Assembly: GCA_011389575.1 (NCBI GenBank)
Contig: JAABUB010000029.1
Span: forward strand, 1 to 37,052
DNA length: 37,052 nucleotides
Direction of reading: 5' to 3'
DNA from: Desulfotignum sp.
Lineage (GTDB): Bacteria > Desulfobacterota > Desulfobacteria > Desulfobacterales > Desulfobacteraceae
Shown here piece by piece: positions 23,980 through 30,742 of this stretch. Under the pieces are notes generated by a model. It was given only the letters and a program-made list of their open reading frames with translations, searched no databases and had not been told where the DNA came from. The translations under genes were made by a program, and so were the position numbers. The stretch's first letter is position 1, and every line of letters starts with the position of its first letter.

Positions 23980-24948
23980 TCAGCTTTCATCTTCAATGGC
24001 TGCCAGGGCATCCCGGGCAGCATCTTTCAGATCCGGGTGCACCAGACCGGGTAATATTTTCTGTATCCAGGCTTTTGTTTCACGTGTGCCGATTTCACCC
24101 AGAATGTATAATATATCTCCCTGGACCGAAACCTCTTGATCAGCAAATGCCTGGATAAGAAGGGGGCAAAGTTGTGCTGCCAGTTCAGGCGCTTCTTCTG
24201 CCAGGGTTTCCACCACCACCATGGCACCCAGACGCACCGACCATGTGTTGTGCAGCAAGAGTGCGGCAAAACCGTTGAAAATATGACCGGCCTGGATCAT
24301 CTGTTGACATATCCACCGGGCATCCCCCTGTTCCAGGATATTTTTCAGGGTATCAGGGCCCAGCTGTGAAGGATCCGGCCGGATAATCATGTCCAGGATT
24401 TCTTTTTGGGAGGTCTGACCGGTCCACCTGAAATCCTGGTTCAAGATCAAACAGGGAGCAGATAATACCTTGTGTTTTCGGGCTGATTCAGGAAACAGGC
24501 TGCCATCGATGATATGCAGAAAAATTTTTTTCTCATGGGCTGCCAAAGGAATAAGGGTCCTGACCATATCGGGACAATGGGGGCATTGCAGGGCAATGAA
24601 AAGAATCAAGCGGCAGGGATGATCCAGAAGAGTCAACATGCGTTGCTTGTGGTCTTCCAAAACAGGCAGGGGGTCGGCCAGAAAGGACAGGGCTTCCAGA
24701 AAAGGCGCCAGCTCTTTTTCCAGGGGAAGTGCGCTGAAAAGGATGTTGTCGGCTATAAAGATGGCGGGCAGATGTGTTTTTTGCTCTGAGGGCTGAATTT
24801 TGAGGCATGGGGCCAGTCGGGAAAGTTCTCTGGTAAAGTCATCAAAACCTGCCTGCTCCGGATGGCTGGACCGGGATAAAAAAATCTTTTGGGTATGTGT
24901 CTGTTTTTGTGCCCAGGCACGAATTTTTTCTTTGTCTTCGATTTTCAT
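23980..24948 (-). CDS. AhpF N-terminal-like thioredoxin-fold protein fused to HEAT repeats
   Basis: A 322-residue protein. Residues about 1-205 resemble the tandem thioredoxin-fold N-terminal domain of AhpF: a redox motif CPHC (C122-C125) in LQCPHCPDMVRTLIPLA, then FLHIIDGSLFPESARKHKVLSAPCLILN, which parallels the AhpF segment after its CxxC. Residues about 215-320 are HEAT-like helical repeats (LLHNTWSVRLGAMVVVETLAEEAPELA and VSVQGDILYILGEIGTRETKAWI). No flavin or NADH domain is present, so it is not a complete AhpF. It could act as a dithiol relay docked to a partner through the HEAT part. It overlaps the upstream regulator gene by four bases (ATGA). Confidence 0.82.
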   Translation of the reverse strand: MKIEDKEKIRAWAQKQTHTQKIFLSRSSHPEQAGFDDFTRELSRLAPCLKIQPSEQKTHLPAIFIADNILFSALPLEKELAPFLEALSFLADPLPVLEDHKQRMLTLLDHPCRLILFIALQCPHCPDMVRTLIPLAAHEKKIFLHIIDGSLFPESARKHKVLSAPCLILNQDFRWTGQTSQKEILDMIIRPDPSQLGPDTLKNILEQGDARWICQQMIQAGHIFNGFAALLLHNTWSVRLGAMVVVETLAEEAPELAAQLCPLLIQAFADQEVSVQGDILYILGEIGTRETKAWIQKILPGLVHPDLKDAARDALAAIEDES

Positions 24949-26612
24949 GCCTGAATCTGGTTGCCTCCTTGATGTAGCGCAATATCCAGGGCTTTCAAAG
25001 CCTGATGAACCAGATCAGGCCCTGAGACGGATCCCGCCCCCGGTGCGGCTGATGCCCGGTTTTCTGTGTCCTGCTTTTCTCCTGTAAAGCAGGCCATTCC
25101 AATGCTTAGGGTCAACCGGATCAGATGGGTGCCTACAGAAATTTTGTTGTCACCGATGTTTTGTCTGATACGTTCGGCCAGAATCTGTGCTTGGGTAAAC
25201 TGGGTGTCGGGCAGTACAATGCCGAATTTTTCCGCCCCGAACCGGCATACTACATCCAGGTCCCGTACCATCGCCTGGATCTTTGCAGCACAGGCGGTTA
25301 AAATCATATCACCGCTCTTGTATCCGTGTTTTTCATTAAAAGACAGAAACTGGTCCACCTGCACCAGCAGGATGGACAAAGGCAGGCGGTACCGCCTGGC
25401 TTTGGACATTTCCAAAGCCAGGGTCTGGTTGAACCAGCTGCGGTTCAACAGCCGGGTCAGTTGGTCCCGCCGGGAAATCAGATCAATTCGGTCCCGTGCA
25501 CCCTGAACTTTACGGGTCAGTCTGGCCTGGGTCAGGGTTTTCTGGATGGTATCCACCAAATCCATTGCTGATGTCTGTTCTTTGACCAGAAATGTGGAGG
25601 CACCGGTGGCAATGGCAGCAGCCCCGGCATCTGTATGGCGATGGTCCACTGTGTAGATTATCGGGGCCCTGGTTCTCAGCCGTACCAGCTTATCCAGCAG
25701 ATGCAGGCCGGAGCCGTCTGCCAGCTGGTGGTTGATAAAAATAATATCCGGCCGGCAGGAGGCCACATATTCCAGGGCCTGTTCAGCGGTGTCAGCCTGG
25801 ATAAGATCGGCTTTTATCCTGCCGGCAAGATAATGTTCAAAAATACTGAATTCATCTGTAAAATGGGTGGCAAATAGAATTCTGCCGGACCGGTTTTGGC
25901 CGGTTTTGTCCTGGAAAAGAATCTGACTGCCCACTTCCCGGTTCTGGGATCTGCGCAGCCGACGGATCACCTCTGCGATATGGGCGCCGGCTGTCCGGAT
26001 CCGGGTGACTCCCTGGCGCAGGCGCAGGGGCATGTCCGGTGCCTGCTGCAAAAAATAGGTGCTGGCCTGGATTTTGGATAAAAACGGCTGGATTTGATTG
26101 GTAAATGCAGATGACAATGCCAGAATATCTTTTTTCAGGGTGTTCTCAGATAATGAGGACTGGTGCTGATCCATAAACCGGGTATAGACTTTTTCCAGTT
26201 CCTGGATGCTCTGGTCCACAGCAATGCGGTGGCGGAAAAGTGCCATAAAAAGCAAAAGTTTGGCCCTGATCAACACCGGTTCAAGGGGTTTGGCCACATG
26301 GTCCAGCAGCAGGGGAGGCACTTTGTCATACAGATCCGGCAGCCCCGGGGTATCTGTTACCAGCAGAACCGGGGGGATTTTGGCATGAGCAAAGCGCAAC
26401 AGGCTGTCTGATAAGGCATGGGGGTCAATTTCCGGCAAAGACAGATCCATGACGATAAATGCCAGGGACCGGGAAAAAATGTGTTTCATGGCATCGGCAG
26501 TTGTCTCTGCCTGGATAATCACAAGTTCCGGGGTTTCTGCCAATGCGGTTTTGACCGCCTTGGCAGTGTCCCCGGGGGCGATGATTAATGCTGTGTGAGA
26601 GGTGGCGGTCAT
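24945..26612 (-). CDS. Double receiver protein with degenerate GGDEF domain
   Basis: A 555-residue regulator and first gene of a five-gene operon. Residues 5-125 are a receiver domain keeping D56 (FIVMDLSLP) and Lys (VAKPLE) but lacking the usual Asp pair. A helical linker follows (about 130-235). A second receiver (about 243-365) has Asn at the phosphorylation site (IFINHQLADGSG). The C-terminal GGDEF domain (about 375-550) has RRDQLTRLLNRSWF, but its active-site loop reads RFGAEKFGIVLP, so GG[DE]EF has become GAEKF and cyclase activity is unlikely. It may be a c-di-GMP or GTP sensor or a structural regulator. AAGGA lies before the ATG. Confidence 0.88.
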   Translation of the reverse strand: MTATSHTALIIAPGDTAKAVKTALAETPELVIIQAETTADAMKHIFSRSLAFIVMDLSLPEIDPHALSDSLLRFAHAKIPPVLLVTDTPGLPDLYDKVPPLLLDHVAKPLEPVLIRAKLLLFMALFRHRIAVDQSIQELEKVYTRFMDQHQSSLSENTLKKDILALSSAFTNQIQPFLSKIQASTYFLQQAPDMPLRLRQGVTRIRTAGAHIAEVIRRLRRSQNREVGSQILFQDKTGQNRSGRILFATHFTDEFSIFEHYLAGRIKADLIQADTAEQALEYVASCRPDIIFINHQLADGSGLHLLDKLVRLRTRAPIIYTVDHRHTDAGAAAIATGASTFLVKEQTSAMDLVDTIQKTLTQARLTRKVQGARDRIDLISRRDQLTRLLNRSWFNQTLALEMSKARRYRLPLSILLVQVDQFLSFNEKHGYKSGDMILTACAAKIQAMVRDLDVVCRFGAEKFGIVLPDTQFTQAQILAERIRQNIGDNKISVGTHLIRLTLSIGMACFTGEKQDTENRASAAPGAGSVSGPDLVHQALKALDIALHQGGNQIQA

Positions 26613-26747: not shown

Positions 26748-29700
26748 ATGAGCTTTTATGCAGATCTTCATATCCATTCCAGGTATTCCCGGGCAACATC
26801 CCGGAACCTTGATTTTGAAAATATTTACCATGCAGCCCGGATCAAGGGCATCAGAGTTGTGGGCACAGGCGATTTCACCCACCCGGCCTGGGTCCGGGAG
26901 ATGGAATCCAAGCTGGAACCGGCTGAGCCCGGGTTGTTTGTGTTGAAAAAACAGATCGCAGCAGCCATTGATGATGCCATACCCCCATCCTGCCGGAATC
27001 AGGTGCGCTTTATGCTCCAGGCGGAAATTTCCAATATCTATAAAAAAGACGGCAAGGTCAGAAAAAATCATAATATCATCTACTTTCCGGATTTGACCAG
27101 TGTTAAAAAATTTAATGCCCGCCTGGATGCCATCGGCAATATCACGTCCGACGGCCGTCCCATTCTCGGGCTGGATGCCAGGGATCTTCTGGAGATCATG
27201 CTGGAAACCTCTGACCAGGCATTTTTGGTGCCTGCCCATATCTGGACCCCCTGGTTTTCCCTGTTCGGGTCCAAATCCGGATTTGACCGGATAGACCAGT
27301 GCTTTGAAGACCTGGCTTCCCACATTTTTGCGGTGGAAACCGGCCTGTCTTCTGATCCGGCCATGAACTGGCGGGTAGCTGATCTGGACCATGTCCGGCT
27401 CATGTCCAATTCAGATGCCCATTCTCCGGGATATCTGGGCCGCAATGCCTGCGTGTTTAATACGGATCTGGATTATTTTGCCATGCGCAAATCCCTTGAA
27501 AATGTTGACATTAAAGCATACCAGGGAACCCTGGACATGTATCCGGACCAGGGGAAATACCATTATGACGGTCACAGAAAATGCGGTGTCAGCCTGGATC
27601 CGGATGAAACTGCCCGGCTGGACAAGATCTGCCCGGAATGCGGCAAACCGCTGACCCTGGGGGTGCTGTATCGGGTCAGGGAGCTGGCTGACCGGCCACA
27701 AGGATTTGTGCCCTCTGACCGCCAGGGGTATACCAGTATTATTCCGCTTACAGATATGCTGTCTGAGATTTTCGGGGTGGGCCCCAAAACAAAAAAAGTT
27801 GCCCGGTATTATGAAAAAGCGGTGCAGCTCCTGGGACCGGAACTGGACATTCTGCTGGATTGCTCCTGTGAGGACATCCAGGCAGCCGGCATACCGCTTC
27901 TGGCTGAGGCTGTATCCCGGATGCGCAATAAAAACATCCATGTGGAACCCGGATTCGACGGACAGTTCGGCAAGGTTCATGTGTTCAGTGCCAGGGAAAA
28001 AAAACAGCGCAAAGGAGAGCTGCAGCTGCAGATGACCCTGGGCGGAAAACCGCTTGAACAGGTGGAAAAATCCTTTCCGGCTGCAGAAAAACAGCCGGAA
28101 AAAAAAGGGAGGAAAAACAGAAAGATACTATCCCGAAACACGCTGCCTGCATCCGGTGCAGCCGGTACATCCGGAATCTTGTCTGCCGGCACGCCGAAAA
28201 TACTTGAGGACTTGAATGAAAAACAGCGTCAGGCTGTGAATTCCACATCCCGTGCCATTCTCATCACAGCCGGACCGGGCACGGGAAAAACCCGGACCCT
28301 CACATCCAGAATCGCCCATCTGATATCGAACGACATGGTTTCTCCCGGACAGATCCTTGCCCTGACCTTCACCAACAAAGCAGCCCAGTCCCTCTCCCGG
28401 CGCATACAAGGATTTTTGCCACCAAAAGGACCCGGCGTGACCGCTGCCACCTTTCATGGATTCTGTCTGGCCATGCTCAAGGAATATGACGGGTGCAGGA
28501 TCCGTCTTCTGGAAGAAGATTACAAAAAAGAACTGGTAAAAACAGCCCTGAAAACATGTACAGAAAAACAAACCGGCTTTTCCCGCCAGGCAGCCCGGAT
28601 GGATCTGGATATCAGCTTGTGCAAACAGCAGCTGCTGGGCCCCGAAGATGACTTGTCCTGTGTGGCCCGGGACCAGGTACTGCTCAAAAAAGTGTATGCC
28701 GCTTACCTGAAGCAGCTTTCCAACCTGGATTTCATGGATTTTGAGGACTTGATTTTCCGGTTTTACCATTTGCTCACCCGGTCTTCGGCGCTGCTGCACC
28801 AGGTGCAGAACCGGTTCACATATATTTTTGTGGATGAGTACCAGGACCTGAACAAGGGCCAGTATGAACTGGTAAAACTGCTGGCACAAAACAGCCACAT
28901 CTTTGTCATCGGTGATCCGGATCAGTCCATTTACGGTTTCAGGGGATCGGACAACCGGTATTTCAAGCAGTTTGCCGCAGATTATCCCGGGTGCGAACAG
29001 ATCGTTTTGACCCAAAACTACCGGTCTACCCAGACCATTCTGGACGCTTCTTTTCAGATGATTTCCCGGTCCGGAAAAGACAAAGGGTTCCAAAAAATTT
29101 TTTCAGAAGATACCAAAACCAGGAAACTGGTTATCAGGGAAACCGGTTCAGAAACAGCAGAAGCGGTGGCTGTGGGAAAAATGATTGAAGCCGGAGTGGG
29201 GGGACTGTCCTTTTTTGCCATGGATACCAGGAAACAGGAAGATTTTCTGGACGGGGCCTATGGGTTCTCTGATTTTGCCGTATTGTTCCGCACCCGCAGG
29301 CAGAAAGACATGTTTGCAGATGTGTTTCAGAAACATGGAATTCCTTTTCAGACAGCAGACAAAAAATCAGGGCTGGATCTGGACGGCATCCGCCAGTTGT
29401 TAAGCTGTTTCAGGTTTATTACCGGCCGGTGGGAATCAAAGGATGTGCAGGTGTTGCATACCCATTTTTCCAGGGACAGGCAAACAAAAAATATTCCAAA
29501 AACCTTGGAGCAGATGCTTGGACCGGTGACAGAGCAGATACGGGACAGATCCAGCCATGCGTGTCTGGATATATTTATCCGGTTTCTGGGAGTCCAGCAG
29601 GCCCTGGCGGCAGATCCGGCTGCAGCAGACATGAGGGCCCATCTTGAACACCTGGCCCGCGTGTTTGCCGATCCTGATGATTTCATGGACCACCTGGCCC

Positions 29701-30071
29701 TGGAACAGGATCCGGATCATCTGGTTGATAGAGTGGAAAAGGTGTCTCTTCTGACCATGCATGCGGCCAAAGGACTGGAATTTCCCGTGGTGTTTGTCAC
29801 CGGGTGTGAACAGGGGCTCATCCCTTTTGCACGGGACAAAAAAAATTGTGAAAATCCGGCAGAGGAACGCCGCCTTTTTTATGTGGCCATGACCCGGGCC
29901 ATGGATGTTCTGTGTCTGACCTATGCCAGAAAAAGACAGATTTTCGGGGTGATGGAAAACCGGCAGCAATCGGTTTTTCTGGATGATATTGAAAGGCGCC
30001 TTGCGTTGGTTGAAAAACAAAAAAAGAGACAGCCGCCCAAACAGGCGCAAATCCAGCTGGAAATGTTTTAA
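26748..30071 (+). CDS. Endonuclease Q-like PHP domain fused to UvrD/PcrA-type helicase
   Basis: A 1107-residue DNA repair protein with two enzymes in one chain. Residues 1-235 are a PHP phosphoesterase with metal ligands D6, H8, H10, D42, E93, H164, D223 and H225. A zinc-finger region follows (C279, C295, C298; CPECGKPLTLGVLYRVRELADR), as in endonuclease Q, which nicks DNA 5' of deaminated bases. A helix-hairpin-like region runs to about 400, then a basic linker (445-465). The superfamily 1 helicase has Walker A AGPGTGKT (508-515), VDEYQD (695-700), GDPDQSIYGFRG (722-733), QNYRS (756-760), TMHAAKGLEF (1003-1012) and RRLFYVAMTR (1041-1050). The C-terminal QLEMF resembles a sliding-clamp motif. 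It is divergent from the operon to its left. Confidence 0.92.
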   Translation: MSFYADLHIHSRYSRATSRNLDFENIYHAARIKGIRVVGTGDFTHPAWVREMESKLEPAEPGLFVLKKQIAAAIDDAIPPSCRNQVRFMLQAEISNIYKKDGKVRKNHNIIYFPDLTSVKKFNARLDAIGNITSDGRPILGLDARDLLEIMLETSDQAFLVPAHIWTPWFSLFGSKSGFDRIDQCFEDLASHIFAVETGLSSDPAMNWRVADLDHVRLMSNSDAHSPGYLGRNACVFNTDLDYFAMRKSLENVDIKAYQGTLDMYPDQGKYHYDGHRKCGVSLDPDETARLDKICPECGKPLTLGVLYRVRELADRPQGFVPSDRQGYTSIIPLTDMLSEIFGVGPKTKKVARYYEKAVQLLGPELDILLDCSCEDIQAAGIPLLAEAVSRMRNKNIHVEPGFDGQFGKVHVFSAREKKQRKGELQLQMTLGGKPLEQVEKSFPAAEKQPEKKGRKNRKILSRNTLPASGAAGTSGILSAGTPKILEDLNEKQRQAVNSTSRAILITAGPGTGKTRTLTSRIAHLISNDMVSPGQILALTFTNKAAQSLSRRIQGFLPPKGPGVTAATFHGFCLAMLKEYDGCRIRLLEEDYKKELVKTALKTCTEKQTGFSRQAARMDLDISLCKQQLLGPEDDLSCVARDQVLLKKVYAAYLKQLSNLDFMDFEDLIFRFYHLLTRSSALLHQVQNRFTYIFVDEYQDLNKGQYELVKLLAQNSHIFVIGDPDQSIYGFRGSDNRYFKQFAADYPGCEQIVLTQNYRSTQTILDASFQMISRSGKDKGFQKIFSEDTKTRKLVIRETGSETAEAVAVGKMIEAGVGGLSFFAMDTRKQEDFLDGAYGFSDFAVLFRTRRQKDMFADVFQKHGIPFQTADKKSGLDLDGIRQLLSCFRFITGRWESKDVQVLHTHFSRDRQTKNIPKTLEQMLGPVTEQIRDRSSHACLDIFIRFLGVQQALAADPAAADMRAHLEHLARVFADPDDFMDHLALEQDPDHLVDRVEKVSLLTMHAAKGLEFPVVFVTGCEQGLIPFARDKKNCENPAEERRLFYVAMTRAMDVLCLTYARKRQIFGVMENRQQSVFLDDIERRLALVEKQKKRQPPKQAQIQLEMF

Positions 30072-30091: not shown

Positions 30092-30742
30092 GTGAAGACC
30101 AGCCTGCCCGGTGTCAGAATGCCGTGTTTTTCCAGCACAAACCGGTTTTACGTCTTCCGGTCCATGTGCAGGTACTGGCTGGTCTGCCTGTTACTGACCG
30201 GAGTTCTCTGGTATACGCCTGAATGTGTCACAGCTGATATCTACAAGTATATAGATAAAGACGGGGTGGTGCATTTTACCAACACCCCCACCACACCCGG
30301 TTATGAGCTGTATATTCGGGAAAAGGCCACAGACCGGGGCAGATCCCGGGATACAGACGTATATGATGACCTTATCCGCAATGCCCAGCAGCGTTACGGG
30401 GTGCCCTTTGCCCTGATAAAGGCGGTGATAGGGGTGGAGTCCGCATTCAATCCCCGGGCGGTATCTGCCAAAGGCGCAAGAGGTCTGATGCAGATCATGC
30501 CGGAAAATGATGCATTCCTGTCCCTGGCTGATCCATTTGATCCTTCTCAGAATATCATGGCCGGCACCCGGTACCTGAAACAGATGCTGGACCGGTATAA
30601 CCAGAAGCTGCCCCTGGCCCTGGCTGCCTATAATGCCGGTCCCACGGCCGTGGATAGGTACCGGCACATCCCGCCCTTTAAAGAAACCCGGGCCTATGTC
30701 CAGAAAGTGATGGCCCTGTTCACCCGGTATAAAGAGGCTTAG
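30092..30742 (+). CDS. Small SLT lytic transglycosylase with DUF4124 segment
   Basis: A 216-residue exported murein hydrolase. A hydrophobic signal segment lies at about residues 27-42. A DUF4124-like strand follows (IYKYIDKDGVVHFTNTP, 50-66). The SLT domain (about 92-210) has the likely catalytic glutamate E116 in VIGVESAFNPRAVSAKGARGLMQIMP and the late AAYNAGPTAVDRY block. The start is uncertain: the GTG at 30092 is used, but an ATG at 30119 or 30164 would still leave a signal segment. An AGGAG lies about 15 bases before the GTG. The gene is 20 bases downstream of the helicase and probably co-transcribed. Its stop overlaps the end of convergent galU by four bases. Confidence 0.88.
   Translation: MKTSLPGVRMPCFSSTNRFYVFRSMCRYWLVCLLLTGVLWYTPECVTADIYKYIDKDGVVHFTNTPTTPGYELYIREKATDRGRSRDTDVYDDLIRNAQQRYGVPFALIKAVIGVESAFNPRAVSAKGARGLMQIMPENDAFLSLADPFDPSQNIMAGTRYLKQMLDRYNQKLPLALAAYNAGPTAVDRYRHIPPFKETRAYVQKVMALFTRYKEA

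Follow-up and report, generated by a model that had tools for sequence, protein, structure and literature searches.

The stretch of DNA analysed here (the window, positions 1 to 37,052 of contig JAABUB010000029.1, 37,052 nucleotides in all, from the Desulfotignum sp. assembly GCA_011389575.1) carries at positions 26748-30071 an open reading frame (ORF) whose product is, judged by sequence comparison and structure prediction, an Endonuclease Q (EndoQ) module followed by a disordered linker and a complete PcrA/UvrD-type helicase. Such EndoQ-UvrD fusions are widespread, with the known EndoQ and UvrD-type parts standing in a single chain in many bacterial phyla. The gene and its parts are the following (aa, amino acids; pLDDT, predicted local distance difference test; SF1A, superfamily 1A):

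26748..30071, + strand: endoQ-uvrD fusion gene, 1107 aa, ATG start, no internal stops; matching architecture and length in loci L115 and L116
26748..27977, + strand: Endonuclease Q module, aa 1-410, assigned by TIGR00375 and by likeness to PfuEndoQ in sequence and predicted fold
26769..26777, + strand: HIH, first PHP metal motif (H8, H10); H8 in 50/51 and H10 in 51/51 aligned fusions
27573..27641, + strand: probable zinc site H276-x2-C279 ... C295-x2-C298, in 51/51 aligned fusions
27990..28199, + strand: linker, aa 415-484, pLDDT below 50 at aa 430-481, variable across the 51 aligned fusions
28017..28040, + strand: ELQLQMTL, by alignment position probably a decayed remnant of the C-terminal clamp-type motif of EndoQ itself
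28200..30023, + strand: SF1A PcrA/UvrD-type helicase, aa 485-1092, assigned by PF00580, PF13361, 1pjr and predicted fold
28272..28292, + strand: Walker A GPGTGKT, aa 509-515; K514 and T515 in 51/51 fusions
28833..28847, + strand: Walker B DEYQD, aa 696-700; D696, E697 and Q699 in 51/51 fusions
30048..30068, + strand: C-terminal QIQLEMF, beta-sliding-clamp-type motif ending the disordered tail (tail pLDDT below 50)

ORFs of 1107 aa with 94% identical EndoQ halves are present in two Desulfotignum metagenome-assembled genomes (MAGs; L115, L116), and an assembly artefact was rejected as the source of the fusion, since these MAGs and many other genomes share the architecture. The initial annotation had described a PHP nuclease and a complete superfamily 1 helicase in one chain, with which TIGR00375, PF00580, PF13361 and the predicted fold agree. 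In a profile search aa 5-410 scored 176 bits against TIGR00375 (E 1.4e-51; positions 2-374 of its 374), three EndoQ sequences were the sole matches among PDB sequences at E 0.1 (E 9e-50 to 5e-49), and aa 5-412 of the window protein aligned to residues 5-382 of PfuEndoQ (E ~1e-49). A better fit of the N-terminal part to some other PHP family had been named as one result that would speak against the assignment. No such family matched in Pfam or NCBIfam (E 0.1) or among PDB sequences, so that other PHP families were rejected and the EndoQ identity stood in these searches and in the fold comparison. The full chain, for which the annotation had suggested a structure prediction, was modelled with AlphaFold2 on 51 fusion sequences (mean pLDDT 84; predicted template modelling score, pTM, 0.57), with three stretches of low confidence, namely aa 168-176, the linker (430-481) and the tail (1094-1107); at a pTM of 0.57 the relative placement of the two halves is not predicted. 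Each half resembles its expected relatives, PfuEndoQ and UvrD/PcrA/Rep, respectively, and the predicted EndoQ half superposes on PfuEndoQ (5zb8) with a template modelling (TM) score of 0.88 normalised to the target and a root-mean-square deviation of 3.0.

In PfuEndoQ zinc is bound by E76, H84 and H139, each of which inactivates the enzyme when changed to Ala, and T and A are kept out of the pocket by H139, G169 and S171 (PMC8307549; this and all further papers are cited from excerpts of their text). The PfuEndoQ sequence carries the letters published for these numbers, and the counterparts in the window protein, E93, H108, H164, G199 and S201, are invariant in 51/51 fusions and in 161/161 bacterial rows. 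All mapped PfuEndoQ residues (E76, H84, H139, G169, S171 and D193, the last being Asn in PDB chain 7k31) are conserved. The metal ligands of the PHP nuclease, already recognised from the single sequence, are kept across the fusions: E93, H108, H164, D223, H225 and H10 are each found in 51/51, and H8 is replaced, by Gln, in one row. The zinc segment quoted in the initial annotation, CPECGKPLTLGVLYRV, starts at the second half of the zinc site with C295 and C298. The site as a whole is likely H-C-C-C rather than the C-C-C-C of PfuEndoQ. His occupies the first position in 120/120 fused, 28/29 standalone and 9/10 split rows, and the other three positions are Cys in all fused, standalone and split rows except for one fused row with Gly298 (H276, C279 and C295 in 120/120, C298 in 119/120 fused rows).

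The helicase half is matched at aa 489-1061 by PF00580 (UvrD-helicase, E 1e-69) and PF13361 (UvrD_C, E 2e-38), its nearest solved relative by sequence is PcrA (1pjr, E 1e-80), and among the listed UvrD/PcrA/Rep chains the predicted fold reaches TM scores of 0.61-0.80 to the target, with UvrD at the top. Twelve residues, which we take to belong to the helicase motifs (Q493, K514, T515, D696, E697, Q699, R732, Y758, R759, K1008, E1011 and R1050), are present in 51/51 fusions. The fusion shares motif residues, both UvrD domains and the fold (TM up to 0.80) with PcrA, UvrD and Rep, but differs from them in sitting behind a lesion nuclease and in its terminal clamp-type motif; 84 residues separate the two matched blocks, compared to 128 in PcrA. 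Conservation of the catalytic, pocket, zinc and helicase residues across 51 fusions drawn from many phyla indicates that both engines are under selection.

The disordered tail of the window protein ends in QLEMF, a motif of the QL[SD]LF type, whose consensus we take to be that of a beta-clamp binding motif. In the 51 aligned fusions position 1103 is Gln throughout and positions 1104 and 1106 are conserved in at least 90%. The strict pattern Q[LM]x[LM]F lies within the last 12 residues of 74 of the 108 closed fusion ORFs longer than 850 aa (87 with a relaxed pattern; these are 108 of 119 fused loci, the remainder being open-ended or of at most 850 aa, and the window protein stands outside the counts). 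It terminates none of 1087 other ORFs of at least 250 aa from the same loci, which are mechanical ORFs and in many cases not genes, and shuffled fusion tails yield it at a frequency of 0.0009. Several actinobacterial fusions end in QLRLL or QLTLL. Where the helicase is a separate ORF the terminal motif is found in 9 of 11 cases, namely in 8 of 9 closed partners adjacent to endoQ and in the broken fusion L133; the distant helicase of L188 is without it.

A second motif of this kind belongs to EndoQ itself. The C-terminal QxxhF is present in 9/10 split EndoQ genes and in 16 of 26 standalone genes (3 of the 29 standalone rows were unscored), and between the halves of the fusions an internal QxxhF is found in 59 of 111 (69 of 111 relaxed) versus 0.014 and 0.051 in shuffles. 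The internal count covers 111 of the 119 fused loci, six of the eight left out having ORFs of at most 850 aa, with the window protein again outside the counts; none of the 11 actinobacterial fusion rows has the motif. Many relatives carry GQKSLF-like letters at the position of ELQLQMTL, which itself falls outside the motif pattern. TkoEndoQ binds PCNA and is stimulated by it via a C-terminal PCNA-interacting protein (PIP) box, and in 2016 bacterial EndoQ was already noted to have C-terminal beta-clamp motifs (PMC4858679). What is new over 2016 is that a clamp-type motif terminates the helicase, whether fused or neighbouring, and this terminal motif and the operon form described below are additions to the initial annotation as well. 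The terminal tag probably docks the fusion on the replication clamp, as its sequence suggests.

The occurrence of the fusion across Desulfobacterota, a question raised by the initial annotation, proved to be broad, and it extends to other phyla. TIGR00375 matches were found in 255 of 395 sampled genomes of the window's phylum and the fusion in at least 95 of the 395, comprising at least 90 junction-spanning matches and five cases proven by the ORF (G032, G183, G158, G272, G020). A fusion was counted when one match of the full-protein query crossed the junction without a stop, or when the fetched locus had one ORF; frame-length values were not used, as G306, G350 and G160 exceed 1000 aa despite a stop between two genes. 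In a pattern scan with one genome per species at least 586 of 589 stretches were confirmed relatives, of which the 80 nearest loci were kept (63 fused, 4 split, 12 standalone, 1 undetermined), a set that favours fusions because 12 of the 14 query rows are fusions. Loci L035-L114 (n = 80) were picked by hand, and their proportions carry no meaning. The titles of the records with fused loci, many of them MAGs, hold ∼11 phylum names (Desulfobacterota, Actinomycetota, Chloroflexota, Planctomycetota, Myxococcota, Alphaproteobacteria, Binatia, Fibrobacteres, Gemmatimonadetes, Latescibacterota and Aerophobetes), a number that may shift because titles such as 'Deltaproteobacteria bacterium' fall under Myxococcota in the taxonomy. 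Isolates with the fusion include Desulfonema magnum, two Saccharothrix, Nocardiopsis halophila and Actinopolyspora mortivallis.

Ten of 160 classified loci have endoQ followed on the same strand by an adjacent, separate helicase gene. The helicase ATG comes directly after the endoQ stop in L108 and overlaps by one base in L192; the gaps measure 3 to 10 bases in L109, L110, L154 and L194, and 49 to 224 bases in L058, L111, L127 and L065. A phage or plasmid origin was rejected, as no relative was found among the phages or plasmids searched, and the 35 stretches of viral contigs matched in a scan with two short patterns included no relative. Judged from titles, abstracts and term counts, no study describing an EndoQ-helicase fusion was found among the papers listed. 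EndoQ homologues of Bacillus and Desulfovibrio are mentioned in the excerpted EndoQ literature, and the Desulfovibrio protein drawn in PMC4357722 may be such a fusion.

The EndoQ tree (FastTree, 161 bacterial rows and one long archaeal outgroup; the 30 short-flank loci L005-L034 were left out) places 119 of 120 fused rows within one 132-row group (support 94, not starred), which also holds 12 non-fused rows (10 standalone, 2 split). Outside this group are one fused row (L043) and 8 of the 10 split pairs. At least 15 changes of the fused label are required on this tree, 11 of them forced by starred branches, versus a mean of 36.6 after shuffling. In the helicase tree, a quick tree of 49 rows with a long-branch warning and with fused loci thinned to about 1 in 3, all 36 sampled fused helicases fall into one 39-row group (support 99). 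Three separate helicases belong to this group: those of L127 and L154, two loci that the EndoQ tree likewise places among fused rows, and that of L133, where a broken fusion is spread over two frames. Both trees fit a history in which an existing gene pair was joined in one main event and the joined gene was later lost or split about a dozen times; repeated fusion may have occurred instead, and the direction of fusion or loss is read from the single long archaeal outgroup. L055 and L136 have EndoQ genes inside the fused group and no helicase match in the fetched 13.5 and 8.0 kb (∼1.6 kb downstream in L136), perhaps by a recent loss of the helicase half. L160 (a Rhodococcus rhodnii record) and L175 (a Kibdelosporangium philippinense record) share an identical 14-residue tail and pair with support 100, and one of the two records may be misnamed.

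We propose that the fusion is probably a clamp-tethered single-chain enzyme of alternative excision repair for uracil, hypoxanthine and apurinic/apyrimidinic (AP) sites. The domain content, the residue conservation, the matching trees, the operon form and the terminal motif support this reading, as do the genomes of family f50 described below. The initial annotation, too, had suggested that a fused motor could unwind from the EndoQ nick in an excision pathway for deaminated bases, an interpretation that these results support. The QLxLF-type tail would tether the protein to the beta clamp of DNA polymerase III. The EndoQ half, as its conserved residues suggest, would accommodate the lesion (uracil, hypoxanthine or an AP site) in its pocket and cut the bond on the 5' side of the lesion; by the chemistry known for archaeal EndoQ, the damaged strand would then carry a 3'-OH and a 5'-phosphate at the nick. 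The helicase, held on a linker of ∼70 aa, would then load at the nick onto the intact strand and move 3' to 5', and would thereby strip off the lesion strand, starting at the 5' end. The lesion flap would be cut away by a 5' nuclease (PolA or RecJ, for example), before polymerase and ligase would fill and seal the gap. UvrD and PcrA are 3'-5' helicases, and this direction would be useful because at a nick 5' of the lesion it is from the 5' end that the lesion strand is displaced. Of the two repair models drawn by the authors of the EndoQ work, one has a helicase remove the DNA once EndoQ and EndoV have both cut (PMC4357722).

If the proposal is correct, the frequent coupling of bacterial EndoQ to a helicase of its own suggests what follows an EndoQ nick, and a uracil-repair route without a glycosylase would be possible. 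Since the clamp has two unlike faces, the tether could bias incision to new strands, and strand-biased incision would remove misincorporated dUMP as well as deaminated bases. With an internal motif kept in the relaxed form in 69/111 fusions (the window protein not being among them), a chain could also fill both sites of the clamp dimer. Hosts with no detectable uracil-DNA glycosylase (UDG) would be the settings where such a pathway could show.

The UDG superfamily (PF03167) was found in 353 of the 395 genomes of the phylum, and a phylum-wide swap of UDG for the fusion was rejected on this ground. Among the 42 genomes lacking a PF03167 match, the 20 that were listed include seven with junction-spanning fusions (five of family f50, G042 and G146), and the other 22 include the remaining 11 f50 genomes. 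In family f50 (16 genomes, 99-100% complete, e.g. G076 and G277) PF03167 over the cut-off was found in 0/16, with weak matches in five genomes at E up to 10 (best E 0.002), and EndoV was found in 0/16. A junction-spanning fusion is present in 15/16, the EndoQ match of G297 lying at a contig end, and ExoIII and dUTPase are each present in 16/16. Among the UDG superfamily, EndoV and EndoQ, the EndoQ-UvrD fusion is the sole one found in f50, uracil glycosylases of the helix-hairpin-helix type being outside this search. As a tentative extension, which we consider somewhat less likely than not, the fusion would be a major form of bacterial EndoQ and would carry out clamp-tethered, glycosylase-free excision of uracil and hypoxanthine, replacing UDG in f50. 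In the window's own genome (G000) dUTPase (PF00692) was not matched, which may be an assembly gap since this genome is 83% complete.

Several points weigh against the excision-repair proposal. The curated TIGR00375 cut-off of 326.6 bits is not reached by the window protein, nor is it by any of the 395 sampled genomes of the phylum. Of 108 fusions, 21 lack the terminal motif also under the relaxed pattern, and the internal clamp-type copy has decayed in the window's own lineage. Gene-neighbourhood clustering of 128 loci revealed no neighbour shared by the majority of fusions; its largest cluster comprises 26/128 loci, on either side and either strand, and the next ones reach 12. Because UDG-superfamily genes are so common in the phylum, the fusion is not the sole candidate for uracil repair in most hosts. 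The f50 argument is weakened as well, since ExoIII, present in all 16 genomes, nicks at dU in some archaea (PMC4357722, PMC6202378), and the absence of EndoV from f50 says little because EndoV was found in just 3 of 25 tested genomes. The loading of the helicase at the nick and its direction are inferred.

Three other accounts have to be weighed against clamp-tethered excision of deaminated bases. The chain could be a replication-associated, clamp-bound enzyme whose main substrates are AP sites or another lesion or structure, with the helicase serving fork rescue and the cutting of deaminated bases being secondary. EndoQ does cut AP sites too (PMC8307549, PMC11354406), a clamp-type motif ends the fusion, most hosts keep a UDG-superfamily gene, and in 11 of the 126 loci for which 3 kb of flank was available the EndoQ gene has a divergent dnaN upstream of it. 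However, the pocket residues that exclude T and A are invariant, for which an enzyme of AP sites only would have no need, the dnaN neighbourhood is confined to the window's order and to records titled Desulfobacterales, Desulfobacteraceae or Deltaproteobacteria, and dnaN and the EndoQ gene are on opposite strands there. We regard this account as unlikely. A general cellular UvrD/PcrA helicase to which a dispensable nuclease is attached is the least probable account in our view. Although PcrA is the top family match of the helicase half, and the search of the window's genome (83% complete) found one other helicase of UvrD/Rep length (620 aa) besides frames of 1636 and 1274 aa, that 620-aa helicase is the better fit to PcrA (529 bits across almost the entire model, versus 378 bits in two stretches for the fusion), and the EndoQ residues are invariant.

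A role in anti-phage defence against uracil-containing or otherwise modified phage DNA, in outline like Gabija, is very improbable. It draws on matches of the PADLOC GajB models to the helicase half (best E 1.6e-88) and on a review that floated an antiviral role for Bacillus EndoQ (PMC8307549). Yet the best 25 of 51 PADLOC families all fall in the helicase half, and UvrD-like helicases cross-match generally. None of the ten neighbouring ORFs is matched by PADLOC at E 1e-5, an EndoQ in 255/395 genomes of the phylum is wide for a defence gene, and no relatives were found in the phages and plasmids searched or in the two-pattern scan of viral contigs. Identity with Gabija itself was rejected, as the helicase half alone matches (among the best 25 of 51 rows) and a gajA neighbour is found in 0/10 ORFs. 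The likeness to GajA-GajB, a nuclease with a UvrD-like helicase, is one of working manner only, and the Gabija nuclease belongs to another family than EndoQ.

The preferred reading, excision repair from a nick, has counterparts among known systems. UVDE repair and MutL-based mismatch repair, which also employs the beta clamp and UvrD, both place a nick near the damage and then remove the strand, with clamp coupling in the latter. These are functional analogies; the nucleases are unrelated, and the fusion unites nick and motor in one chain. UVDE-type alternative excision repair is mentioned alongside EndoQ in PMC4357722. Closer relatives are archaeal EndoQ (PfuEndoQ, TkoEndoQ) and the EndoQ of Bacillus pumilus, which share catalytic residues, pocket, a probable zinc domain, fold and an alignment along almost the entire enzyme with the fusion (the comparison being made with PfuEndoQ alone); a C-terminal clamp-type motif is common to the archaeal enzymes too, where it is a PIP box (PMC4858679). 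The fusion differs from known EndoQ in being ∼700 aa longer, in the added UvrD-type helicase and in a clean clamp-type motif at the helicase end.

Among the loci with dnaN upstream, ten are fused (L044, L053, L120, L122, L124, L128, L130, L131, L132, L135) and one is a standalone EndoQ (L056); gyrB lies beside dnaN in 10, and family scans confirmed one dnaN and one gyrB among them. The ten scanned neighbours of the window do not include dnaN. Two conserved upstream proteins of ∼204 and ∼175 aa occur in 13 loci, nine of them dnaN loci; one example of each was searched and had no Pfam or NCBIfam match, and the ∼204-aa protein looks RdgC-like by eye only. The genes flanking the fusion in the window are:

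23980-26612, - strand: GGDEF-domain protein and thioredoxin-like protein with a weak DVU0298 match, upstream of the fusion
30092-30742, same strand as the fusion gene: lytic transglycosylase, after the fusion

A transglycosylase-looking protein likewise lies downstream on the same strand in a cluster of 12 fused or split loci.

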